A stretch of DNA of 64,000 bases from Kappaphycus alvarezii (lineage: Eukaryota > Rhodophyta > Florideophyceae > Gigartinales > Solieriaceae), in NCBI GenBank assembly GCA_002205965.3, contig NADL03000599.1, positions 2,294,001-2,358,000 of the forward strand. The letters run 5' to 3'. The notes beneath the pieces are model-generated. The model saw only the letters and a program-made list of their open reading frames with translations, was not told the DNA's origin and made no database searches. The position numbers and the translations under genes were made by a program. Below are positions 1,130 to 47,461 of this stretch, one piece after another (the stretch's first letter is position 1; each line of letters starts with the position of its first letter).

Positions 1130-4100
1130 CAAATTAATTCCCCGTTGAATTGCCCGAATGAGGAATAGAAAGCTAACCATTTTCAGAAATTGACGTAAAG
1201 ACGGTACCTTGTACGGGAGCAGGTCGATCATTCGCTGCCTAGAGAATCGATTTAACGCGTTTTGCGCGTCCACCGATACTTCGTTTCAGCTCAACATGAG
1301 CGCGGTCTGACTGAACCGTTTATAGAACCAATCAAACCGTGAAAACGGTCGTTCACTGGTGTCCAAAAGACAAGAAATTGTACCCATAAGACTACAAATA
1401 ATTGTTCAAATCAGACTACTCACCAGCATACTCCTCTTCGGAATATAGAATGGCGGAGAGGGGTAGTTGTGTAAACTCGGCAAGTTTGAAATAGAATACT
1501 TAATGTCCACATTCTACAAGACATTTTCAAAAGGGGTTTCCATTTCTTACGGAGACGGTGTCTTTAAAAATTAAACAAAATCTAACCAAGCACAAACCAT
1601 TTGATCTCTTCGCAAAATAAATTGATTGACTGAATCTCAATCTCTTTCTAATCTAGATCCAAAGAGGAGTTCCTACTCGGACGAGAGATTCCACCACGAC
1701 AATTTGAAACACTTTTATCATGTTGCTTAAATGGAAGCTCTAATTGGCATTGTGATGAAGGAGATTCCAGTGGCGAGTACAAGTACAAATATACTTGTAC
1801 AGGTTTGTGATTTACACTTCCTCTAATCGAACTGTAAGTTAGATTCAACAGTACGCTCAAGACCCTGCCGTCATTTCTTCAGACCATTCTAAGGACGCGC
1901 CCCTTGTATCTGCAGCAGTGCAATCAACTCTCTTCATCAATTAATATTGTGGGCACGGATTCGGTGCGATACTGATAACCTCATCGGTAGCAACATCATC
2001 ACGGTTCACGCGCTTTGATACCCAATACTCATCACTTCGCGATGAAAATCGGTACAAGCTTGGGTTTAATCCAACGGTTAAAAGCCCGTTCATGAGGTAC
2101 TTGATTGTCACAGATAGCCACTTGCTTCATGTTTCAGGCATCGATACACCCAGCGTTACAAATTTCCATTTTGTAACTAATTGATCCAGCACCATGTCGT
2201 TTGAGGTGCTCAGATATCAGCCCGCTGTACCTGGGTAAGTAGCGGTGTCCAATTCAAGCATATAGTGCATGAAAAATCTTTCATTGCATCTATGCGCAAG
2301 TTTTTTCGAGATTTAGATACCAAATGTATGGTCACTTAAGCAGCTTCACCAAAAAAAACATTTGCATCCACCAGCTCCAGGGCGACTCTCGAGCAAGGTA
2401 CGTTAACGTCGCCATTTTGAGACAAAATCAGTGTTACGACAGATATTTTTTCAAATTACACAATAAATGAGCCCAAATTTGATGATTATTGTCAGGAAAG
2501 CCAAGCTTTTGTAATATTTATCAAGTTTGAAAGGGAAGCTGATGCATCAGTAGTTTCTACCTACACAAGCTACAACCAATGCTCCTTGGCAGAGGCGTTA
2601 TTGTTGCTAACGCAACCTACCTCGTACAAACCTACCTGTTTGATTGTTTGCATCTTACTGAGGACCCCTCTTTCTATTAATACTCTTGTCAGGAGATTTG
2701 GTCGTCAAGAGGGACCAACATGTTGGAACAAGAGAGGACGGGGCAGGTCCTGGATGTGTCCCAGGTGAACCATTATTTTTTCCTTGAACTCTACAAGGGT
2801 CTTCTCCAAACGCGGCAATTTTCTAAGATGTTTCTACCAATGACGCGTTTTTTGGTATCATAGTGATATTGGCATCGTTAATATTCGGCTCACGGTGGTT
2901 TGGAACTGCTTGACCATCGAGTGCGGTTTTATGTCATCTCCTTCCTCTTCTTCGTCCCTAGACACGGCAGTGATTTCATTATTACCCATTTGCCTGCTGT
3001 AATTACCAACCCGATGTTCATGGGATAAGCGTCCGCACCGTCGTTAGCCCAGTCGAAGGAAAAACTTAAAGTTTGAGCTGCTTCTTCGTTAAGTTGCTCC
3101 TCACGGACTTGATCGTACTCTAGAATATCGTTTCCAGTATTGCTACCTGTATAAACTTGAGAAACCATACCGGCGCTGTAATTTTGGCTAACGGAAAAGG
3201 ATTGTGGGGCTGGAGATCGACTTGGCGGTCTAGAATTTTAATTAAAGGATAGTGATCGTGGATGCGAGGATCGGCTTGGAGTTTTGGTGCCTTGTTCTGG
3301 TTCTTCCCGCTGGCTCGATGACTTTCCAGGGGAGTTCCTCGAACGGATAAGGTAACGGACTTTTCTGGCTTTGCTCTGCATGCGTTTTGAGATGAATTTC
3401 TTGATAGTCCAATTGTCTCAGGCTTGCGTATACGCTCGAAGATGCTTATTCTTTTTGAAGGACTTTTGAAGTTCTTCTTCTAAAGGTCTCATGATCCGCC
3501 GGGGAACATCAGAAGCAGTGTTCCCTCCGTAATATGTGGATGTGTTGACGCTTCCATTTAGAAACTACAGGATCTCCTCAAGAAAATCTGTTACAAAATC
3601 CAGAGCCGCCCTTTTTCTGTCACAGTCACAAAGGTTATCACTCCGTAATACCTCATACTGCATTGCCGAATTACCCGCAGGTTCTTGATTTTGTTTGCAA
3701 ATTTAATTGAAGATGCATTCGGAAACGATGATTAATTTATTCATATCTCACGGTCCTTGCGATACGGCTGTCCCACTGCTTTGTGCAATACGCTTTGTAT
3801 TTGGAATCCCAAGTGGTTCCGTAATGATTGATTATAATAGGATGTAAGTTTGGAGGAGTTGATGATCAATTTTGGGAGCTGCCCCGAGCAGAAGTAGAGC
3901 CAAGCTGGCCCTAGAGCAAAGGCCCAACCTTCAGACGGCTACTTCAATGCCATTCTAAAATATATTTACAGTCATGGATTCTTTTCTGTTTTCGCTTCGG
4001 CAGCAAGCACTTTCTTCGCTTCGTGTTGCTTTTTTACACGAATATCGTTTGAACATTGCAACAGGTATCGAGAGATTTATCTAAGGGATGATTAGCCGCT

Positions 4101-21699: not shown

Positions 21700-22120
21700 G
21701 GCGCCGATTCGAAAGTCAAAATGGCATCAAAGCATTAAATTTTGATGTTTTGATAATTCCGCCCCCAGCCTGAGGAGATACTCTAATGTAACGTTTTTAT
21801 ATTTTTAAAAAACAGATACTGTACAGTACACTTCAATCATGGAAATAGAGAGCTTACACTAGATTCCCAATCTGTACTGTAGTGCACAAGAATCAGCCAA
21901 GAGTAGCCTCGGATTCAACAATATTTCACCCGCATATTTTCGAATCTTGACTTGACCAATGCGCAGGGAGCTCGGCCCTGGTTGAAACCTTTTTCAAAAA
22001 GCCTTCGAAAACGGCATCCGAATCGAAAGGAGAGATCTCTTTGGAGCAATCGCTTCTTGAGTCGAATTGTACTCCCAGAATCTTTGAAGCGACCAGCAAA
22101 CATCCCATCCCTGTGCGTGC
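21700..22120. other. Intergenic spacer upstream of rbfA
   Basis: No gene. It marks the left border of gene island A and contains GTAC-type motifs at 21815-21890 (ACTGTACAGTACAC). Confidence 0.4.
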
Positions 22121-22126
22121 TATTCT

Positions 22127-23113
22127 TTGACAATAACTCGTCCATCTCCTGTCCCTCCAGCATCGCACTTGAACGACATGCGTCACATCGGCATCAGCAC
22201 CACGCGCACAGCAACTTTCCAACCGCCCCCCGAGCCGACCACTGCATTCACTCGTCATATGCCTCACTCACTCGCCAGCTCATTCATGCTTGCCTTTTGC
22301 GGTCTACCCAGTAACCTGAATCTCAACACACCTTCCGCGTTTCTAGGATGCAAACGACCTGAATTGCGTGACTGGTGTAGGACTGGTGAGGTAGACACGA
22401 GGTGGGCGAGAACGGGGCGTGTGATAATTCATTGCGGTCGCCGGGGCGGTAGTCGGGGTGGAGGGACTTTCCGACCGCGTGGGGATGGTCGTCGTCCGAA
22501 TCGGGTAGCAGAGTTGATTCGACGGGAGATGTCTGGCATTATCGACAGTGAGTATTCTAGGGCGTTTTCGTGGGACGAGGCATCGTCGTCTGTGTTGGTT
22601 AGTATTGTGGATGTAAAATGTTCGGACGATTTACGGCACGCGCGCGTGAGTGTGTCGGTGTTGGGGACTGAGGATCAAAAGAAAAGGGCATTGGATTGGT
22701 TGAAGGGGGCGAAAAGGGAACTACGATTTAAATTGGCGCAATGTGTAACACTCAAGTATATACCGCAGCTTTCGTTTACAGAGAGCGAGCTGGCGCAAGC
22801 TTTGAAGACAATGACAATTTTGGACCAATTGGCTCAGGAAAGGGAGATGAAGAGAGTTGGATCGGGGGCGACGGCAAGCGTGACTCCATTTGCAGGTGAA
22901 CAAGAAGTTGGCAAGGATGATTTGATTCTCGATGACCTTGATATGGATGGGATTTTTGATGTTGCAGACGACGGGGACGACGACGACGACGACGACGACG
23001 ACATGTTCGTGGAGGTGGGTGACGGGGAGGAAGACCTAGCGGCGATGAGCGATTCGGACGTGAAACGGGCGTTGTATAAAGTGCTGGGGGATGACGAACT
23101 TGCGCGGAGATGA
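22127..23113 (+). CDS. rbfA: Ribosome-binding factor A, probably plastid-targeted
   Basis: RbfA binds the immature small ribosomal subunit and helps mature the 5' end of 16S rRNA. The core (about residues 120-225) shows RRPNRVAELIRREMSGII, then VLVSIVDVKCSDDLRHARVS (the family's V-x-V-S-x-DL-x-x-A pattern), a helix, and LKYIPQLSFTESELAQ, which matches the conserved P-x-L-x-F motif. About 120 residues precede the core. They are basic and hydroxylated, as expected of a plastid transit region. The first ATG in this frame is 22127, but ATGs at 22178 and 22259 also fit; a start at 22259 gives a more typical transit peptide. The C-terminus is extended by an acidic tail with a run of ten aspartates, encoded by GAC repeats at about 22973-23002. 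It is followed after 168 bp by the stop of the convergent Erv1-like gene. No intron is needed. Confidence 0.85.
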   Translation: MTITRPSPVPPASHLNDMRHIGISTTRTATFQPPPEPTTAFTRHMPHSLASSFMLAFCGLPSNLNLNTPSAFLGCKRPELRDWCRTGEVDTRWARTGRVIIHCGRRGGSRGGGTFRPRGDGRRPNRVAELIRREMSGIIDSEYSRAFSWDEASSSVLVSIVDVKCSDDLRHARVSVSVLGTEDQKKRALDWLKGAKRELRFKLAQCVTLKYIPQLSFTESELAQALKTMTILDQLAQEREMKRVGSGATASVTPFAGEQEVGKDDLILDDLDMDGIFDVADDGDDDDDDDDDMFVEVGDGEEDLAAMSDSDVKRALYKVLGDDELARR

Positions 23114-28824: not shown

Positions 28825-30375
28825 CGGTGCCGGAAATTCAAGTACGACACCCTACCCTATTTGCACTAAAAAGATAACCAACCCAGGAAAAAGCGCGAAA
28901 CTTTGCCAAACGTATTTCTTTTATATATTATTTAAAGCACCAAAGTTTCGTAAACATTTGATAATTATTTTTTTAAAATATCAAAAAAGGCTACCAGAGA
29001 GGGGGAAATTTGATTACGACAGGGAGTGTCTTTAGTACATTATCATCAAGGAAACACACGTGTTAGTACTTCGTCTTCTTTCCCCTATTCTCAAGCATCT
29101 CTCTGCACCGACTGGTCATGCTTTTGACAAGTTTGTAACGTAATTCTTGCCCCAACTGACCCTACTCAACAAGAATGCAACGTTTAAGTTCAGCGACAGT
29201 GTCAAACTGCCTTCTACCGCAGTAAACTTTCCTAGAACGCACCCTCCATATGTTCTCTATAGGATTTAGATCTGGAGAACGAGCAGGCCATTGCATAACA
29301 TTCAAATGTTTTGACGCAAACCACTCCAACGTCAACTTAGCCTTGTGTATAGATACGTTATCTTGTTGAAACTTCCAAGGCCCAGAAAATATAGAAGCTG
29401 CAAACGGCATTAAGTAGCTCTCCAGCGTTTCGCAGTACTTTGTAACGTTCTGCCGGCCTGAAAGAAACGCGATTCTCGAATAACACCCCTCGCAAAAAGC
29501 AGCCGAAACCATTATTCCTCCACCCCCATTCTGACAGCGAGATAAAATCGTTTCTTGGTGTCGCAAATCATGCCAGTATGATTGGCAACCATCGGGTCCA
29601 TCCAGATTGCACTTATTTTCATCTGAAAATACCACACGAGCCCATTAGTTCCTTGACCAGTAGTGCCTCTCCCGTGCCCACTCTAGCCGAGCTTGCATAT
29701 GGGTTGGCGTCAGCAGAAGGGACAGTTTAAGCTTCTGGAATCGAAGATGTGGAGCCTCGGACAACAAATGGCGGATGCGGTGGCTCGTAACTGGTAGGGA
29801 GAGGTCGTTCTTGATTTTTGTTGAAGTTTTCAGTGATTTGGAGGGCTCCCGGTGGAGTGTACGCAAGGCAGAATCAGTGATTTTGCGGTTGTTTGCGCCT
29901 TATTTTCGAATCCCATATTTGTTTGGGTCCTTAAGAAACAATGAAATGCAAGACCGAGACCGATTGACACGCCTCGTTATCTCTGTGACAGGTAGCTTTA
30001 GCTTGTGAAGCTCGAGGATGCCGCCCTTTTCTCGTTCAGTCAAACTGGGCTTGCGACCCATGTTGTGTGCCGTGTTTTGCGGTCACGGTCAATTCGGAAG
30101 TATGCTGCAATGGTATGCAGTATAATAAAGCGTTGATATTGGCGGGAACGTCGCAGTACTGTTGAGTATTGCTCAACTGTCGTAATCGGATTTCCCCCTT
30201 TTTGGTAGCCTTTTTTAGATTTTTTTAAGAAATAATTGGCAAGTCCCTCCGAAACTTTACTTCTTTATATATCATATAAAGAGAAGGGGTTTCCCAGAGT
30301 TTTGTTGTATTTCCTTGGTTTGTTCTCTTTTTAATGATAAAAAGAGGGGGTGTCGTAATTGAATTTCCGGTACAA
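28825..30375 (-). mobile_element. Tc1-family DNA transposon, nearly intact (copy 1)
   Basis: The inverted ends read CGGTGCCGGAAATTCAAGTA at the left and the complement of GTGTCGTAATTGAATTTCCG at the right. TA target sites flank both sides (28823-28824 and 30376-30377), and the length is 1551 bp. Inner portions of the ends also match: CAAAAAAGGCTACCAG at about 28981 and its complement at about 30205. Ends of this type belong to a DD34E Tc1-like transposon. The second copy is at 45924-47461. Confidence 0.9.
29063..30061 (-). pseudogene. Tc1-like DD34E transposase, three in-frame stops
   Basis: One continuous frame of about 332 codons runs from the ATG at 30061 (MGRKPSLTEREKGG) to a stop at 29063-29065, the usual Tc1 length. 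The N-terminal helix-turn-helix shows VTEITRRVNRSRSCISLFL. The catalytic residues are all present: D in VFSDENKCN, D in FQQDNVSIHKA, and E in SPDLNPIENIW, with exactly 34 residues between the second D and the E. The only damage I see is three internal stop codons, near 29906, 29647 and 29162, without any frameshift. One of these (near 29162) replaces a tryptophan codon kept in copy 2. This suggests a recent insertion, and possibly one still mobilised in trans. Confidence 0.85.
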
Positions 30376-34378: not shown

Positions 34379-35490
34379 ATGCCTCCAACACAACATCCTA
34401 CAATTCCTGAAACCCCCAAACCAGTCCCAACCCAGCAGCAAGCAGCAAATGCCCTGCACATTCTAACAGGCATTGCTGTAGAGCGTGAAGTGGAGCTACA
34501 GAAATTTGATGGCAGCGACAGCGAGTTCAACACTGATGATGAGACTTCATCTCCTTTCCCAGTTTTTGACATATTTAACGAAGCAAGAGGCTGTAAAGCC
34601 ATACAAGATATAACCAATTTCAATGCTTCGGAGTTCAACACCATTTGGGGTACCGTAGAGCCAGTCATCAGCGGGATTTAAGATGTAGGGCCTGGAAGAA
34701 AGGGGAACTATGCGGGCAAGGATATGTTGTTAATGCTTTTAACAACTTTAAAGTGGGATGGCAGTGCAAGATTCTAGCGAAAATTTTCAACCGGAAGGAG
34801 CCAAAATTCGAGAAAATGATGACAGAATTTATGAAATTGCTCAGCGAACCCCCTTTTGAAGCTGTCGAACAACGAAACAGGTCTCTTTTTCCTTTCAGTG
34901 AGATGCTACAGGACGGAAATAAGTTTAAGTACTATCCGACTGGTAGGTACTCCACCGACGTCACTTTTCAACAAGCAAATCGACCAAGAGGAAACATGCA
35001 AGAAGGGAACGTTTATTTCAGCGGTAAACACAAGCTGCAATTCAAAGTTGAAGTTTCCGTGCTACCAAAAGGACAGGCTCTAAATTGCTCGAATCACTAC
35101 CCTGGGTCGGTAGCTGATTTAGAAATATTTCAGCGGAAAGTTGACTTCCACAGAGGCGCGCTCAAGAAGACAAGAGTCAAGAGAGAAATCGCATATAATT
35201 GTCCGCTGTCTGGAGAGTACCCTAACCATTGAGGCATATTAACGGATAAAGTATACCAAGGGGCGATATAGCTGACTCGTGCATTTATTCCGAAGAAGAA
35301 CCCACGTAATAGTAATTTAACACGCGACGAAGAAGCTACAAACAAAAAATTGGCGTCTGATCGTATTATCGTGAAAAAATTTTTCGGACGGCTTTGCTCA
35401 CTCTGGGCAGTAGTTGGAAGTAAGTGACGCTGGAAACAAGACCAATATGATTGCGTCCTTTGCATATTGCTGTCAAACATTCAAATTCAG
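34379..35490 (+). mobile_element. Harbinger-type DDE transposase, decayed
   Basis: The plus-strand reading opens at 34379 (MPPTQHPTIPETPKPVP). It passes a helical segment (ITNFNASEFNTIWGTV), changes frame near 34678, and continues in 34645-35232. Domain evidence is DVTFQQANRPRGNMQEGNVY, FSGKHKLQFKVEVSVLPKGQ and NHYPGSVADLEIFQRK, the catalytic block of a Harbinger-type DDE endonuclease. The tail at about 35325-35410 (ASDRIIVKKFFGRLCSLWAV) is the typical C-terminal block. Only a few breaks are visible, so it is moderately young. A shorter relative of the same lineage lies at 57.7-58.5 kb. Confidence 0.75.
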
Positions 35491-37629: not shown

Positions 37630-38910
37630 TTTGCTTCTACTAATCTGCGCGGCTATATCGCGCTTCAATCGGCGGAGACAACGCAAAGCGCCGAAATTGG
37701 GAACATCTTGTGCCTCAATTACTCGCATTGCTACAGAAAGGGCTTATATCTGCTCCTTCTTAGGGGGACCACCTCTTGCTAGCCACGTGGTTCATCTGTA
37801 TCAGCTCCACCCATATCCTCACGAATTTCCCAAACGATATCCTCTGCCATGTTGGCGATAGTAGGTTCATCTTAGTAATTGACATCATCATGATAGATCC
37901 AGACAAACCGGTCGCGTCCCAACAGTCTGAGATGATGGAGGCGGGAGTAGAATCCCAAACATCACGAATAATATTTCATCGCTAAAAGTTGATCAATCTT
38001 GTACATGTTTTCTGCGTCATCATCCAAAGAATCAAGGGCCATTTCGTATTGGAGCTTTCGATATCGGTTTTTTAAAGTAGTAATTACACCAGCATCCATC
38101 GGCTGAAGTTTTGACGTCGTGTTGGGCGGTAAAAGCTCAATCTGAACATGTGATAAGACCGGGAGAGTTTAAACCGTCTCATGCGCACCGCAGTTATCTA
38201 GAAACAGCAAAGCATGCCTCCCAGTTCAGCCATTAATAAAGTTGTTGAAACGGTCTAGTTAGGGAAGAAAAAGTCCAGAGTTCATCCAGGCCTTTTTATT
38301 TTTCCAGTAGTCAAAGCCAATATCCTGTCCGGTTTTACCTCGAAATGCACGAGGACATTGGGCCTGTCCAATAATCATGAGTGGCATCTTTCCGTTTTCA
38401 CTCGCGTTCGAACAAACTAGTAGAGTTAAGCGAACTTTGGCTTTTTTCAGCCAAGCAGACGATCTTCTGAAATAGTCCTGTCAGGAGCTATAGAAACGTA
38501 AAGGCCAGTTTCATCAACATTACAAACATAACTTCTATCATACTCCAAAAGCAAAGCCCGAAGGCGTGGCAAGGCAGTTTCCACAGCGGCATAGTCTGCA
38601 TCCCCACTTTCCCGATACACTTGACGGGACCTAAGATCCAACGTTTCTGAAACTTCGACAACCACCCTGAAGTGAACTTAAAGTAAACCTGCTCACTAGA
38701 TGGAAGCATGGCATTAAATGCATCCTACAGCCTCAGCGCCTTCTCGCGATTAACGGCGCCGGTCAAGCATTGCCGAGAGTCATACTTTGCTCGGACCCAA
38801 GATGCCAGGTTTTTCTCCAAGGCCAGTTGAGCGCCGACCTTATTACATCAAATTGGTTTGTTGGATAATGTAAGTGGTTTTTTTGGGAGAGCAGTCTGGA
38901 TATGACAGGT
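37630..38910 (-). mobile_element. pogo/Tigger-type (DDE_1) DNA transposon, decayed
   Basis: Read from 38910 downwards: a CENP-B/Tc5-type helix-turn-helix (LASWVRAKYDSRQCLTG, then FTSGWLSKFQKRW, about 38840-38640), then a spacer and the DDE_1 catalytic core. The three catalytic aspartates are visible as NVDETGLY (about 38510), FLDNCGAHE (about 38190) and QPMDAGVI (about 38095), with LLPPNTTSKLQ between the last two as in all pogo/jerky proteins. The longest open piece is 38447-38665. The tail (KNRYRKLQYEMALDS) extends to about 37990. Several stops and frame changes break it. The ends were not identified; the limits given are coding limits. Confidence 0.8.
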
Positions 38911-38914
38911 CTGG

Positions 38915-40600
38915 AAGGGAGAAAAGGCAATGAAACCTTTGTCGAGCCCATGCTGCATGGTCGGCTGGGGAGGAAGCTAACCTCTCCGCTTTGCGTCATA
39001 AGAATTTCTCTTGGATGGCAGCCTTTCGATTGTGTGTTAGGGTATGGCCGTGCATGTTTGCATGAAAGAATAGAGGATGATGGTATGGGTTCAATGTTTG
39101 TAAAGCTCTGTAGGTCGCCTACAATGTACATTTGAATGCGCATTTTTAGTCGACATGTGCTTTTTCTGAGTACGGCATGGACGTGAAACGTTTACGGCGA
39201 CGTGCTTCTGTAGCATGCAGAAGTGTCTAACGGTTAATGGTCTTACAAAATGGTTAGTTCGTAAAACTACTAGCCGTTGAGATCCATTCAGATTTAAAAA
39301 TTAGCCCACAGCATGTAGTCAAAAGTACACATTTTTTGCCCTGAGGAGCAAACGGAATGCCCTATGGACATATTTATATAGGTTAGGGATAAAAATGCTC
39401 CAAAACGTACCAAAATCGCACTTCACGAATTGGGAAATGCTGTTTGCGTCCTTGTAAAGGAAAAATACATGTATTGAACATTTTTATAGAGAGAAAACAC
39501 TGTAATTACTGTAAGTCAATCATCATTTATCAAGTGGTTGCGATATTACCAAGTCTTTGGTCGAGAGACCTACCGTAATGTGAAACTCGATCGTCTCGTG
39601 CCTTAGCGCACGCACTCTGCCGGCTCTCTGCGGCCCTTATTTTTTTGCCTTCAGCGGCCTCAATCCCAACCCGACCGTGTAAGTACAGTGACAACCCTCA
39701 AGGACAACTGTCCTATACACCGCGGATACCAGGGTTCTCTAAGTACAGTAGCTACTGTACTGCACACTTCTTGTTGGTCTCTTCAGCCGGACCCGGCGTG
39801 CCCCTTCTGGGCCACTATTCTCAGAGCTATGTACCGTGGCACACGAGTCGTCCTCGAAAACCAATGCAAGAAGAATGGTCCTTGTTCTGTAAAGGGAACA
39901 AGGTTTAGGGTGTCAATAATGTTTGAAAGACGTACTGTAGTCAGATGTTTCCAGTGCCACATGAAGCAATCGCGGATTGGCCGATAGCAATGTACTGTAC
40001 ATTACCGCAGTTTTCTTGTACAGTAAACTGCTGTAATGTACATTGCAATTTTGTAATGCACTCTCTGCGGAGAACAATGGCCTCCGATGTACAGAAAAAT
40101 AAGGAAAAAAGCTCTGCTTTTTTCTCCGCAAGTTTTAAAAACATTAGGTTTTTACAAACTCTATCCTCAGGGTGGCCTAAATCGTATGCAAATCCGGATT
40201 GTAGTGATTACGTTTGGAAGATTTGATCGCAACATTCGTTTTGCCATTCATACCTTTTTGAGCCGGCGAGGCACCGATATCCGCTCGCTTTGTATCAGCG
40301 CAAATATGCCGGTCTGCATGTGAACACGCGCTTTTCCCACCTACATCATTCGACCCATTCCCATCAACAACCCCGTCACAATCGCCGTGCCCTTTGTCTC
40401 AGGCTCGTTGTTCGCACGTCCGCTTTCAGAGTGTTGCCTTACCTATTGAACTTTCATCTTAATCTGTCACCCTTCTCCACTCACAGAAGATTCCTCTTGC
40501 TCCTACCATTGCCAAAAAGCATCCTACCCGCTCCACAAACGATTGCGATCAAACTCACTAGCTCTTTGCAGTTTGCACTCTCAAAGCACTCATTGGCTCC
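38915..40600. other. No gene; GTAC motifs left of island B
   Basis: Open frames at 38902-39135 and 39688-39987 have no family resemblance. GTAC-type palindromes cluster at 39675-40045, including a stable hairpin at 39996-40042. From 40330 on this is probably the 5' flank of the SUMO protease gene. Confidence 0.35.
39996..40042. repeat. Hairpin with 18-bp stem
   Basis: TGTACATTACCGCAGTTT at 39996-40013 pairs with AAACTGCTGTAATGTACA at 40025-40042, with one mismatch and an 11-nt loop that itself reads CTTGTACAGT. It could be a miniature transposon end pair or a cruciform-prone site. No function is shown. Confidence 0.6.
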
Positions 40601-43401
40601 ATGTCCATGGACACGGATGAACCCGACGTGCAACTTGTTGAAAGATCCACGTTCCGCGACCATATCTCTTCAACAGCCAGTCCCAAAACAGAAACCTCAC
40701 GCCCGCCAAAGCGTCGACCTCCCAACAATGAACGTCCGTTTGCTCGCCCGAGAGAAATTCCTCAACAAAGAAACCGCCTATTGTCCCGCCCCACCGATCC
40801 GCCAGCGCATTCATCAAACCGCAAATGGAGGAAAGACGGTAATTTCTTTGTGCCAGGAGGCCCCCACTCAACAAATTCTCCCAAATCCACCTTTAGAGCT
40901 GCAGCTGCAACCCTAAAACCCCCTCTTGAGACTGATGGTTCAAGAGGTTGTACTCCGAAACCAGACCCTGCGAATCGCCAAACTGTGCAACCCGCAGACT
41001 CACCAAATTCCAGGGCTTGTACAGTACAACCTCGTATCCCAGTGATCAGAGAAAAAGCAGAGTACAACCCCAGAACTTTGAAAGAAGATCGAGCAAAAAG
41101 AGAGGGCTCCGCCAGCTGGCACAATTCCACAACGAATGTTGGGAGTGAGTCCAGGGCTCCTGGTCACGCTATTGACCTGGATGACGACGGTGATGATATC
41201 GGACCCACACATGCCGTCAAAAGTGTGCCACCACCCACGAAATTGGATGAGGAGCCACTACCTAGTCGACGGTCAAGACGTGAAACGGGCGTGCCTCAGA
41301 ACCAAGTCGACCAAAAAGATAATGTGGCGCGCGCTTTGGATACTAAGGAAGATGATTGTAACCGCGGGGCAAAGCCTTTCACCATCACTGAGATTAGCTA
41401 TGACGGACCAAGGGATTTGATTTTCATGTATCCACCAGGTGAGAGAGGTAATATCCGCGTCACCACAGAGGAGCGAGAACGTTTGAAGCAGCACAAGTAC
41501 CTCAATGATAGTCTCATCGACTTTTATCTCAAGTTTTTGGAAATGGATCTAAAGAGACGCCCTCCCCCCTCAATTTTGCGACAAAATTCTTCAGCTCATT
41601 TTTCTTTGGCGTGCTTCGCCGAGTGAAGACCGATGGTACCAGAAAGAAAAAGTCTGGGATGAAATCTCCCTCTATTGATTACAGTGGTGTCAAGAACTGG
41701 ACCAGAGGGTTCGATATCTTTTCAACTGATTTCGTCATCGTTCCGATATGCGATTCGTTTCATTGGAGCCTTATCATTGTCGCTAATCTTCGGAACTTGG
41801 AAAGCACGCTCAGGAATCAAGAGGTAGAGTTGAAGCAAGATGGGAAGGAGCGGGATCAATTGACCGACCCGGGACGTCCCAAGATTATCTACTTGGATTC
41901 TATGGACCCTGACCGTGGCGGTGACTTGGCCATTCCGATTAGGCATTACCTAGTTGAAGAATGGTTAGCACGAAAGAAGGGGTACAATTCCAAAGACTGC
42001 GACAATGAGAGGACTAGTACAATCAAGTCATTCAGGAGGGCCATTCCACTCTTGAAGCCGAACGTACCGGTTCAAAATAACGAGTACGACTGCGGATTAT
42101 ATCTGTTAAACAACCTCTCAATGTTCCTTAACAACACGGAGAGTTTTATGGCGAAAATGCTTCAAGGAGACCTAGACATGAAGATGGCGTATGGTAGCGG
42201 TGACATCACCAAGTTGCGGAAGAACATGACTTTCCTCATGGATTTATTTGAGGAGGAATGGAGTAAAAGGCATGCAAGATCGCCTCAGGAGCTAAAAACT
42301 AATGACCTTCAAGAAAAGGATCAAAATTTTACCGACAAGGCTCCTGCTCCCGTGGAACAGGAGGATGAAGAAAATTCCAAGGAGGTAGACAATGTCGCAT
42401 GGGCGGAGGAAGACGTTATTGAACAAGACCCGCATCCGAGCAAGGAGCACGTGCCTCATAGGGCTAATCCGCCATTCTCCGTGATTGAAGAGGTAGATCT
42501 AGATTCCGACGAAAGAGTTGAATGCGCTGTGAATTCGAAGCAGGACGACTGTAGAAGCTCAGAAGGGCATAAGAAACGATCCGCCTATGCGCCGAGGCTG
42601 GTGGTGCAAGTGCCTACGAAAACAGATGATGTTATACCTGTGAAAGGCCCTCAACACGACTGTCCCAAAGAGGTTGATGTCAATATCACCAGTCCTTCAG
42701 GGCACAGCGTTGAATCGAGGGATGAGAAGGAGCCTGTTCTGATGGAGTGTGAAAGCGACTGTATCGGATCTGAAGACGTTAGGGGCTCGGACACGAGACT
42801 GCCGGGAAACCGAGATTTGAGCAGGGATAGTGACAGAGTTACCCCGGTGGACGTGGAAGATGGGCACGACGACGCTTCCATGAGTGACCACAGTATCGAT
42901 GGGGGAGACGCTTCCAGTGTGGAGAAAGTCTGCGACTCTGAGATCATGGAAACGGGCTCAGATTATGGAGAAATGGAGATAGAAAATCACAGCAGCCATG
43001 TCAATGATGTTGATAATGCGGGTGATGTTGAGGTTGTTCCCCATGGGGGACTTGGTGCCTATGAACAAAAGCGCACTCTTGACCCCATGATGAAATGCGA
43101 AAACAGTAGAATGCTATATGAAGACGAGCACGAGGAGATTATCGAAGAAGGAAATGGGAATGATATGGAGGAACCATTGCAACTGGTGCGGAACAGTGCA
43201 GATCGCAAGATGAAAAGGAATAGGGAACGGAGGAAGATCTTAAACGAACCTGGTGCTCGAGGCACTCCGGGACGGCCGTCACCCGGGTATGCAGGAGGTG
43301 GGATAAGTTTTAGGGATGACTTACCCCTTGGAAGGAGTAGGTCGCAAGGTGGCGCGAAATTTTCAGAACGAGGTCAAGGGTCGGAAAGGAAGGCTAGGTA
43401 A
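40601..43401 (+). CDS. Ulp/SENP-type SUMO protease (SENP6/7-like), frame break at C6 run
   Basis: This cysteine protease family removes SUMO from proteins. The first frame (40601-41626) has a disordered 260-residue lead and then the start of the peptidase domain (RVTTEERERLKQHKYLNDSL, IDFYLKFLEMDL). The domain continues one frame over, with open sequence to 43401. Just past the break, the second frame reads KFFSSFFFGVLRR, the conserved FFxSFFxxxL block. The catalytic triad and oxyanion glutamine are intact: H in DSFHWSL (41761-41763), D in YLDSMDP (41896-41898), Q in VPVQNNEYDC (42073-42075) and C (42091-42093). Insertions between blocks suggest the Ulp2/SENP6-7 branch. The acidic C-terminal 400 residues look disordered. 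The frames differ by one base at CCCCCC (41564-41569), so one base may be missing from the assembly, or the gene may be truly shifted. Convergent with the HIU-hydrolase fusion gene. Confidence 0.8.
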
Positions 43402-43404
43402 GAG

Positions 43405-43800
43405 CCCATCAGATACAGGACCTTGGCCACTGGGAAAGTCAGTACTTGGGCTGAAAAGGTAATGTACGTCGCAGGTTTGAAACAAGGCTCTCATCCAAAA
43501 TTCGGCGCTCCGATGGTGCTAACTTTCTTTTGACAGCTCCGCGACGGGTTTAAATTACCGTCACTGCAGGGGGAGCCGGAAATTTATGATTGTAGATAAG
43601 ATGGCGAATCGTCAAAACAACGAGCTGGAGGTCAAGGGGTAAGGACTCTGTTATATGGGAACCGTGGGATGAGATCTATCTTTGTAGGAAAATACTTCTA
43701 ACTTGAGCATCATTATCGATGTTCCTAAATGATACCGCAGACATTCGACGTTCACATCCATAGCGCATTCATGGCAGTGATGAAAAGCTTCGTGAGAGGA
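43405..43800. other. Convergent 3' spacer
   Basis: Region between the stops of the SUMO protease and the HIU-hydrolase fusion gene. No coding sequence seen. Confidence 0.5.
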
Positions 43801-43801
43801 T

Positions 43802-45136
43802 TCAGCTTCCGCGGTACGTGGTAAATCCGAAGGGACTGATCAGCAAAGGTACGTGATAATGAGAGGAGGTGTCGCGAACAGAAAAAGTAACATCACAGTG
43901 AGGGTAAAAGCAATCTGTGTTTGCAAGCTTGAAGTATCTCTCGGTCATGAAGCGGAGCCTGTACACACCTTCCCTCCATTGATCCCTTGTAATAAGATCG
44001 GCTACACGGCCATTGACGTTGCATTGAGCATGACACAAGAACTGCTCTGTTCCATCGTCTTGTTTCCGATACAATTCCAACTCGAGACCGGCAGCAGGAC
44101 GACCTGTGGATGTATCAAGGGCATGTGTTGTGAGAGGGCTGGTCATGGAGAGTGGCAGCTGGTGCGAAAAAAGCTGTTGATTCGTGGGCACGACGGCCAA
44201 GTTAGCTGGGTCGACAGGTGGGAATTGGACGGAGGGCTGAACGAATGGAGCGGATGTCTGGGCGGGCGGAGGAAGGGGAGGGTCGACGGCAACGGGCCGG
44301 GATTGACGCCTCTTCTTGGTAATTCCGCCGCGAAGTTTGGGAATACCGGCAGTTTGCTGCAAAAGGCGGGTTATTGTTTGTGTGCTCGGAAATTTTTCCA
44401 GATTAAAATTGTCCTTAGCCCACAGGGCCATTTCCTCATATGTAGGCGCTGACCCAGCAGCGATACGACGCTTGGTCTCCTGTTGAATTTCCTTTTTTTG
44501 GGCGTGGGATAACGTTACATATTTTAATCCCATGCGACGCATGCGAATGACTTTGACATCGCCTTGCTCTTCACTTTCGGGCGGCTGTATTTGTGTGGAT
44601 GGTGATTGGGAGATTGCGGGCTGGTTGGATTTCCCTAGGATGTGCGCGACAGTGCCAGCGGTAGGCTGCTTGGCAAGTTGAAACTTGTGTTGGGCCCATT
44701 GTCTGAGGTAGGACATGTTAGGCTTCTTGCCTTTTTGGAGTAAGCGTTTGTGCTCTTCGAATATCATGTTCTTTTGCTCTGCAGTCAGAGAGGTATTTTT
44801 GTGGCGCTGCAGTTGAGGGGTTGATATCTCGGCCTGTTGCCCTGAGAAAGTCTGGTGGAGGGGATTCGGCACTTGCTGGGAATTATTTAGAATCCTAGAG
44901 ATAGAGACGCAATCAGGTGGATTTTGCAATGCGAATTGGTTCTTTGCCCATTCTGCCAGTTGTTTAACTGTTGGGCTGTTGCCGCGGGCAATTTGATGGG
45001 CATGCTCATCGTAAATCAGCCTCTTCTGAGCGTCGGAAAGTGGAACTGAGGCTTGCAGTGACTGAGACTGCGACCCCTGTTGATTGGGTGATGTCTCTCC
45101 GCTCAAAATGTGCTCTGTGAGTAAGGAATTGAGCAT
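43802..45136 (-). CDS. Triple CENP-B-type HTH fused to 5-hydroxyisourate hydrolase
   Basis: 444 residues in one exon from the first ATG at 45136. The frame stays open upstream to a stop at 45287-45289 but has no earlier ATG. Three homologous repeats of about 54 residues lie at 33-86, 116-169 and 208-261. Each has the pattern L-x-x-A/E-Q-K...E-H/T...G-x-x-P...W-A-x-x-x-F-x-L...P...T/S-I-x-R/H-I/L-L, the helix-turn-helix found at the N-terminus of CENP-B/Abp1 and pogo-family proteins. A proline-rich linker (262-330) leads to a complete transthyretin-like HIU hydrolase at about 331-444. That enzyme opens 5-hydroxyisourate, the product of urate oxidase. Its catalytic H338 (TTHALDTSTGRPAAG), R377 (NGR) and H428 (YHVPLL) and the C-terminal signature YRGS are all present. 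No peroxisomal C-terminal signal is visible. An in-frame ATG at 44146 could start a free enzyme of 114 residues. It is convergent with the SUMO protease. Confidence 0.85.
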   Translation of the reverse strand: MLNSLLTEHILSGETSPNQQGSQSQSLQASVPLSDAQKRLIYDEHAHQIARGNSPTVKQLAEWAKNQFALQNPPDCVSISRILNNSQQVPNPLHQTFSGQQAEISTPQLQRHKNTSLTAEQKNMIFEEHKRLLQKGKKPNMSYLRQWAQHKFQLAKQPTAGTVAHILGKSNQPAISQSPSTQIQPPESEEQGDVKVIRMRRMGLKYVTLSHAQKKEIQQETKRRIAAGSAPTYEEMALWAKDNFNLEKFPSTQTITRLLQQTAGIPKLRGGITKKRRQSRPVAVDPPLPPPAQTSAPFVQPSVQFPPVDPANLAVVPTNQQLFSHQLPLSMTSPLTTHALDTSTGRPAAGLELELYRKQDDGTEQFLCHAQCNVNGRVADLITRDQWREGVYRLRFMTERYFKLANTDCFYPHCDVTFSVRDTSSHYHVPLLISPFGFTTYRGS

Positions 45137-45139
45137 TGT

Positions 45140-45920
45140 CCTCTGCACAAAACGTTGAGTGGTTCCGTGGTGAACGGCGGACGAGGTTGGAGGGTCCGCG
45201 CTGGGCTGGCTGGGCTGGCTGGGCTGGCCGATTGCGCTGGTTACGGATGTTGTTTCGTGAGTGATGGCTGTTGAGATAGAGAACAGCTAGAGAACCTTAT
45301 GTACGGTATCGGGTTTGGAGAGGCAATCGTGCTTTATCGTCTCACTTTAATCCCTACGGTTCTGTCGTCTCATTTGTTCTTCGCACTCCGACTGATGACG
45401 ACAGCAGATTGGTACATTTCTCAAATTTAAAACTTGATCAGCGGGCTATAGATGGACCTGACAGATGAGTGAATCAGTTTCTCACCTAATTTAATTTCTC
45501 TCGGAAATTTTTATTTGAAAGATTTAAATAACTTCACTGTACTGTGGCTGTAACTGTACCTCGAGCCAGACTTCTAGCGACCTTGAACCGGATTAACTCC
45601 GTTTCTTGGTTCCCCCATGCCAACCACTTGTACCAATTATTTCATGCGCTTTGGACACATAGGCTAACCGATTTTTCAATCATTAAAACACCCTAATCTT
45701 TCCCCCTTTACTGTAATGTTTAGCAGAATACTGTAATGGACGAGTCCATATAATTACCGTACTGTTTGGTGTGATGAACATTTTATTTACTCCCGACGAA
45801 GAGCCATCTAGGGCTATGTTGTTGGGGAAAACTAAGATGGTACTGTAGCCATAGCGTTTTCGGTGCGGGGTCGAGTGTAATTCATGAGATCGGTCGGGTC
45901 CATGCACAGCCCAAAAAAAC
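45140..45920. other. 5' flank of the fusion gene, with short tandem repeat
   Basis: 45200-45228 is a 9-bp tandem repeat (GCTGGGCTG) encoding SQP units on the minus strand in the frame of the fusion gene, but upstream of its first ATG. TACTGTAC-type motifs occur at 45535-45550 and about 45710-45770. No other gene seen. Confidence 0.45.
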
Positions 45921-45923
45921 CTA

Positions 45924-47461
45924 CAGTGCCGGAAATTCAATTACGACACCCCCTCTTTTCACCAATAAAATGAGAACCAATGTCTCAATTAAAGCGAAAC
46001 TTTGGCAGACCTATTCTTTCTATCTATTATATAAAGAAGCTAAGTTTTGTGTTCATTCGCCAATTATTTTTTAAAAATATCTAAAAAAGGCTACCAGCGA
46101 GATGAAAATCTGATTACGAAATTTTGTAGTATTAGGGTGTTCCCGCCAATTATACCTCTATAAAGTACTGAAACTGCTTCCTGGCTGTTTTGGACTTGAC
46201 CCGAACAGCCCGCCAACATTAACAACAAGGGCCGAAAGCCCGGTTTGACGGAGAGAGAAAAAAGAGAGATTATTGAGCTTTATAAGCTCAAAATACCTGT
46301 CGTCGAGATCGCGAGACGTGTTAAACGTTCTCGATTCTGTGTTTTGTTGTTTCTCCATGACCCAGAGAACTATAAAGTGAGAAAAAAATATAAGAAACAA
46401 CTGCAAAATCAGTGATGCTGACAAGCGCCGTCTACTTCGCGAGGCTTCAAAATCGCTAACAACCTCAACCAAGCTCAAATACGACCTGTCTCTAACCGTC
46501 TCTAATCGCCTTATACGCCAGCTATTGGCCGCTGCACCCCATCTGCAGTATAAGAAGTTGAAACTGAGCCCATCCCTCACAAAATGTCACATCCAAGCTC
46601 GTCTTGATTGGGCTCGGGAGAGACACAACTAATCTCGTCAATAGTGGGCTCGTGTGGTGTTTTCCGACGGAAAAGAAGTGGAATTTAGACGTACCAGATG
46701 GATATCAATTCTACTGGCATGACCTTCGGCACGAAGAAACAATGCTCTGTGGTCGGTAGAACGACGGTGGGGGTGTGATGTTTTGGAGAGAATTTTACGG
46801 GATTGGTTACTCCGAAATCGAATTTCTTAATGGCTGTCAAAACGCTTCTGAGTATTGCGATACATTAGAGGCTTATCTTGTACCGTTTTTGGCTTCTATT
46901 TTCCAGGGATCATGGCAATTCCAACAAGATAGAGCGTCGATACGCAAAGCTATTTTGACTTTGGAGTGGTTTTAGTCGAAAAATATGATGGTTATGCCAT
47001 GGCTAGCACGCTTTTCAGATTTAAAGCCTATTGAGAACATATGTGGATGCTTTAGGAATTTTTATGCTAATGGAAAGCATTTTGACACCATCGCAGACTT
47101 AAAGAGTTGCACTCTTTCTAAATGGGGTCAGCTGGGGCGGGAGTTGCGATATAACCTAGTCAAAAGCATGACCAATCGATTCCGAGAGGTGCTCGAGAGG
47201 TTTGAAGGAAGAAAAAGTACTAAAACGCAGGTTTACTTAATGTTAATGCAGTAAAAGCACTGCCTGTCGTAATCAGATTTCCCCTCCCAGGTAGCCATTT
47301 TTAGATATTTTTAAAAAATAATTGGCGAATGAACACAAGACTTAGCTTCTTTATATAATAGATAGAAGGAATAGATCTGGCAAAGTTTCGCTTTAATTGA
47401 GTTATTGGTTCTCATTTTATTGGTGAAAAGAGGGGGTGTCGTAATTAAATTTCCAGCACCG
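45924..47461 (+). mobile_element. Tc1-family DNA transposon, decayed (copy 2)
   Basis: Same family as 28825-30375. The inverted ends are CAGTGCCGGAAATTCAATTA and the complement of GTGTCGTAATTAAATTTCCA, flanked by TA (45922-45923 and 47462-47463). Length 1538 bp. The inner strings AAAAAAGGCTACCAGCGAG (about 46083) and its counterpart near 47290 also match copy 1. The plus-strand transposase runs from about 46210 (RKPGLTEREKREIIELYKLK) to 47254. The catalytic blocks are degraded: FQQDRASIRKA keeps the second D, while the third block reads FSDLKPIENI. There are several frame changes and stops, so copy 2 is older than copy 1. Confidence 0.9.

Follow-up and report, generated by a model that had tools for sequence, protein, structure and literature searches.

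The locus examined here raises the question of whether a single gene can join the DNA-binding part of a transposon to an enzyme of purine breakdown and, if so, what the joined protein might do. In a 64,000-nucleotide stretch of the Kappaphycus alvarezii genome, hereafter the window, the initial annotation had described one uninterrupted frame with three helix-turn-helix (HTH) repeats that resemble one another, followed by a proline-rich linker and an entire 5-hydroxyisourate (HIU) hydrolase, and this layout is borne out by a 444-aa protein encoded on the minus strand (Table 1). Between its flanking stops the frame spans 494 codons, compared with at most 271 when the 3 kb around it (43001-46000) are shuffled 200 times at the mononucleotide level, and the three repeats are 30-41% identical to one another in pairwise comparison (z 8.4-11.2, 2000 shuffles each). 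Structure prediction, which had been proposed as a check on the repeats, was run and places three 3-helix bundles in the HTH part.

Table 1. Features of the fusion gene and of a neighbouring transposase copy, in positions of the window
Feature	Position	Strand	Basis or remark
Fusion protein ORF, single frame, 444 aa plus stop	43802..45136	-	ATG 45136, stop 43802; full-length homologue P0001
N-terminal Q/S-rich tail, residues 1-30	45047..45136	-	Absent from P0001; pLDDT <50 for residues 1-29
HTH repeat 1, residues 31-86	44879..45046	-	Repeat comparison, structure prediction, pogo homology
HTH repeat 2, residues 115-170	44627..44794	-	Repeat comparison, structure prediction
HTH repeat 3, residues 207-262	44351..44518	-	Repeat comparison, structure prediction, pogo homology
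Basic/proline-rich linker, residues 263-330	44147..44350	-	Poorly conserved, yet open in P0001 too
Basic stretch, NLS-like, residues 271-280, KKRR at 274	44297..44326	-	P0001: KRQR at corresponding place
HIU hydrolase domain, residues 331-444, own Met331 at start	43805..44146	-	PF00576, TIGR02962, PDB matches
Pogo-type transposase copy, not part of the gene	37895..39043	-	HTH E 0.52 (weak), Tc5-type region E 3e-19, DDE core E 1.6e-44

The enzyme part has the features characteristic of HIU hydrolases. Residues 335-443 match PF00576 from end to end, over all 109 positions (E 9.8e-34), and the match to TIGR02962 spans model positions 2-113 of 113 with 121.6 bits against a curated cut-off of 87.45. 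A PDB search, in which transthyretins were also matched, aligns this part to its last residue with solved HIU hydrolases. The catalytic His, Arg and His and the C-terminal YRGS are the defining residues of HIU hydrolase, and the earlier claim that they are intact holds: H338, R377, H428 and Y441-S444 are present, and the same set is found in P0001, a homologue described below. The protein thus has the full-length domain, the H/R/H set and the YRGS end in common with the HIU hydrolase/transthyretin family (PF00576, TIGR02962), and differs from that family in the three transposase-type HTHs attached to it. As far as general knowledge and the matches of our protein searches go, HIU hydrolases are either small single-domain proteins or fusions to OHCU decarboxylase. 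The OHCU decarboxylase domain (PF09349) is absent from the window protein in a Pfam scan, so this is not an allantoin synthase of the plant type. A search with the enzyme part, limited to proteins of 88 to 280 aa and by that limit excluding fusions, returned 552 relatives, 120 of which were listed. P0067 and P0068, the closest of the 12 relatives inspected, are 71-72% identical to the enzyme part, and no HTH was seen by eye in their 75 and 37 upstream residues; an HIU hydrolase of Rhodosorus marinus among the matches listed (P0089) is 48% identical. Together with matches to phycobiliproteins and an RbfA gene in the window, this red algal relative is consistent with a red algal source, without proving it.

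The origin of the HTH can be traced within the same genome. When the HTH part was compared with the 336 Mb assembly, 137 matches were obtained at E <= 10, three of them being the gene itself and a near-copy, and the best 20 of the 134 non-self matches (E 3.2e-6 to 2.5e-4) were examined together with their 3-kb flanks. All 20 of these loci carry a pogo-type DDE core on the same strand, downstream of the HTH match, and in 18 the query segment containing the Tc5-type HTH is matched as well; the DDE queries had been taken from two of these loci themselves, L026 (the same as L011) and L031 (the same as L016), which leaves 18 independent cases. A Pfam scan covered ten open pieces from L010, L011, L012, L016, L017 and L018: seven contain HTH_Tnp_Tc5 or DDE_1 (six of the ten above a cut-off), one has a weak match to PF18107, and two are without any match. 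In a profile-profile comparison with hhalign, the six repeats of the window protein and P0001 align with seven transposase HTHs at 99.5% probability and 44% identity. The repeats of P0001 likewise match seven of the 20 loci at E <= 1e-3 and 18 at E <= 1 (best 1.7e-8), while none of 20 shuffled queries gave a match at E <= 1. By sequence comparison, then, we show that the HTH of the fusion is homologous to the N-terminal HTH of pogo-type transposases, a group abundant in this genome. Nothing else of the transposase was detected in the fusion: both the Tc5-type HTH (PF03221) and DDE_1 (PF03184) are absent, as judged by a Pfam scan and by tblastn at E <= 1 within the gene.

These results refine the assignment of the repeats to the CENP-B/Abp1 type. 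In terms of the Pfam family PF18107 (HTH_ABP1_N) the assignment stays below the cut-off of 22.5 bits, as repeat 2 of the window protein reaches 12.9 bits (E 0.09) and the whole of P0001 20.5 bits (E 3.9e-4); three of the six single repeats of the two proteins match weakly (best E 0.018), and the family has no match at E <= 0.1 in the algal genome. What stands is the direct homology to pogo transposase N-termini. The broader proposal, that a pogo-type module had been joined to a purine-breakdown enzyme, is supported by this homology, by the completeness of the HIU hydrolase and by the retention of the join in P0001.

Several of the transposase loci keep candidate termini. Inverted pairs of 22-31 bases were found in L026, L030, L035 and L036 (four of the 20 loci), with TACAGT starting at least one arm, and L028 has a similar inverted pair that starts AGTCTTT. 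Two families among the terminal inverted repeats of these five loci share CGCG followed by A/T-rich letters. A TIR-like motif is not enriched within the 64-kb window. The window has a pogo-type copy of its own about 5 kb from the fusion gene, in which the Tc5-type region and the DDE core are spread over more than one frame.

Whether the fusion is more than a peculiarity of one assembly depends on its presence elsewhere. Other proteins with the same architecture, which the initial annotation had suggested looking for, were sought among 5.8 billion proteins, and one was found: among 66 matches, P0001 (418 aa, source 'lgn') spans 93% of the query, whereas every other match covers at most 39%. P0001 is 47% identical over the alignment and has the same domain order from end to end, with 74% identity in the enzyme and 21 of 52 aligned residues identical in the linker. 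By score, the best cross matches between the repeats of the two proteins pair repeat 1 with repeat 1, 2 with 2 and 3 with 3. In a tree of 26 HTHs, the first two of these pairs come out together (84/85 and 86/80); on long branches, the tree groups repeat 3 of P0001 with the transposase HTH of L032 (91/85), leaves repeat 3 of the window protein unplaced and does not unite the six fusion repeats in one clade. We still read the triplication and the fusion as probably predating the split of the two lineages. Because a second organism has the same fusion, we regard it as a real and kept invention; a transposase-derived and a host domain lie in one frame that is conserved beyond one genome, as in host-transposase fusions.

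The genome also encodes the neighbouring steps of the pathway. A uricase gene on contig C458 (298-codon frame, 295 aa ORF) ends in AKL, which we take to be a peroxisomal signal, and PF09349 has five matches on C767 and C2, which we interpret as a pair of OHCU decarboxylase-like genes per contig; uricase and OHCU decarboxylase act before and after HIU hydrolase. The ends of both OHCU decarboxylase copies that were read are without a canonical PTS1. A second OHCU decarboxylase-like protein, at 1471-2406 (minus strand) of L046, has a long Ser/Lys-rich N-terminal tail. PF00576 itself occurs at only two places in the 336 Mb, the window gene and its near-copy on contig C661, in a six-frame search that proceeds exon by exon and could for that reason miss an HIU hydrolase gene split by introns. 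Since the fusion is the sole HIU hydrolase found besides the near-copy, has the known catalytic residues and is accompanied by encoded uricase and OHCU decarboxylase, its product is most likely an active HIU hydrolase.

Regarding its location, the YRGS end of the fusion is no PTS1, and a motif scan, which is weak evidence, found no strict PTS2 and one loose match inside the enzyme. Residues 1-262 have a pI of 9.7, the net charge of the first 280 residues is +17 (+26 in P0001), and there is one KKRR motif; P0001 has KRQR after repeat 3 and one strict PTS2-like match within that repeat, and these motif matches are equally weak evidence. Because the HTH part is strongly basic and a canonical peroxisomal signal is missing, a nuclear, DNA-tethered enzyme appears most likely.

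Our preferred explanation, which we hold to be fairly probable, is that the gene is a host-transposase fusion encoding an active, tetrameric, nuclear HIU hydrolase tethered to DNA. As the homology indicates, the N-terminal HTH of a pogo-type transposase would have been captured upstream of an HIU hydrolase gene; it would then have been triplicated and the rest of the transposase lost, although the order of these events may have differed. Conservation suggests that the fusion was already in frame when the P0001 lineage diverged and has stayed so. Proteins of the transthyretin fold form tetramers whose active sites lie where the two dimers meet, and the enzyme would presumably assemble in the same way. 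With three HTHs per chain, such a tetramer would have four arms and up to twelve HTHs per particle. With its basic HTH arms and KKRR motif, the protein may enter the nucleus and stay bound to DNA, probably at several sites at once, where the tethered enzyme might destroy HIU that leaks from the peroxisomal uricase; it may also act as a regulator, and need not be one. PutA and BirA are bacterial metabolic enzymes that bind DNA, and the fusion would work like them, as an enzyme carried on a DNA-binding domain; their DNA-binding domains are, to our knowledge, not known to be transposase-derived. The two functions offered by the initial annotation, a chromatin-tethered enzyme or a regulator sensing urate-derived metabolites, would both be plausible. 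It is tempting to go further and propose a metabolite-gated, DNA-bridging tetramer, in which the binding or turnover of HIU at the dimer-dimer interface would alter the grip of the twelve HTHs and urate breakdown would control genes, or pogo elements with TIR-like sites, an elaboration that we consider unlikely.

CENP-B/Abp1 and other domesticated pogo proteins keep a second, Tc5-type HTH and DDE-derived parts. In contrast, the window protein has the first HTH only, in three copies and with an enzyme as partner. What it shares with CENP-B/Abp1 and other domesticated pogo transposases is a pogo-derived N-terminal HTH that the host has retained (PMC7325037, PMC10799480). SETMAR and other host-transposase fusions combine a transposase DNA-binding domain and an unrelated host domain in one protein (PMC6326780), and KRABINER is a further host-transposase fusion (PMC10799480); the window protein differs in that its partner is a purine-catabolic enzyme and its HTH is triplicated, without a catalytic core. 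No apparent treatment of a fusion between a transposase HTH and an HIU hydrolase was found in open-licence papers. Host-transposase fusions and domesticated pogo proteins are already known, and HIU hydrolase as the partner appears to be new. Captured transposase DNA-binding domains are known to give transcription factors and chromatin proteins; here the captured domain has been tripled and joined to apparently the only enzyme type for one step of purine breakdown. The fusion is a clean, testable case of mobile-element parts recruited to metabolism, and of whether such a capture can place a metabolic enzyme on chromatin. Binding is directly testable because relatives of the putative donor, some with recognisable terminal repeats, sit in the same genome.

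The gene could also give two products, the full fusion and a free enzyme made from Met331 by way of an internal promoter or start, an alternative that we regard as possible and hold tentatively. Met331 and the TSPLTTHALDTSTG that follows it recur unchanged in P0001, nine of the 12 relatives inspected start here or a few residues away, and in the C661 near-copy the enzyme frame is open from Met331. However, five in-frame Met codons (124, 141, 199, 202, 236) lie between Met1 and Met331, and the bases just ahead of Met331, CTCTCC, are unfavourable for initiation; these two observations make it unlikely that ribosomes scan past the HTH part.

It is more doubtful that the HTH repeats have lost DNA binding and now act as a platform for protein interaction or localisation, which would make the protein a cytosolic HIU hydrolase with an adaptor. 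A precedent is found in Caenorhabditis F-box proteins, in which a Tc1/mariner HTH was captured by a host gene, as in the fusion, and which showed no DNA binding in EMSA and no nuclear signal (PMC12062965); our caution on DNA tethering stems mainly from this published case. These proteins differ from the fusion in transposon family, in their F-box partner and in having an HTH reported as non-binding (PMC12062965). The recognition helix of repeat 2 looks the most diverged of the three by eye, and a cytosolic enzyme would be in keeping with the OHCU decarboxylase copies, which are also without a canonical PTS1. Against this reading, seven columns are invariant in all six repeats, and the HTH part is strongly basic in both the window protein and P0001 and is followed by an NLS-like motif.

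That the gene is a young or decaying chimera without function, its frame open by chance and its second copy already broken, is in our judgement very improbable. Contig C661 is collinear with much of positions 24400-53813 of the window, mostly at 85-97% identity, and its near-copy of the gene is disrupted by single-base insertions within repeat 1 and the linker, with small indels also in the neighbouring Ulp1-type protease gene. The two fusion copies differ by seven synonymous and ten non-synonymous changes, in which no strong constraint is evident and which decide nothing on constraint. However, the whole architecture is kept in P0001 at 47% identity, and a second uricase contig, C207, shows zero substitutions and nine indels in 878 aligned coding positions in the one gene checked, a pattern that resembles sequencing error. 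The broken frames of second-copy contigs are for this reason not to be taken at face value, and the C661 frameshifts are perhaps indel errors in that contig. Second copies of regions with many small indels occur in the assembly at L001, L003-L006 (C661) and L023 (C207).

An assembly join inside the linker, which the initial annotation had raised as an objection, is ruled out by the same order at the C661 locus and in P0001, and the related idea that two genes were taken for one is hardly credible, since GTAAG, GTATG, GTGAGT and GTA(A/T)GT are all missing from the coding strand of the frame and what could remain is an intron with an unusual 5' site, for which no other support was found.

The surroundings of the fusion gene hold further features. 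The Ulp1-type protease gene lies at 40601-43401 (plus strand), with PF02902 in 41512-43398, and is convergent with the fusion gene. An upstream frame at 40601-41626 overlaps the protease frame and may hold the first part of the protease; for this reason, an intron or a frameshift near 41611 is possible. DDE_3 and DDE_Tnp_4 matches at 29165-29644 (minus strand) and 34597-35229 (plus strand) mark the remains of two other DNA transposons, and a gene with an RbfA domain, perhaps for a plastid protein, lies at 22088-23110 (plus strand).
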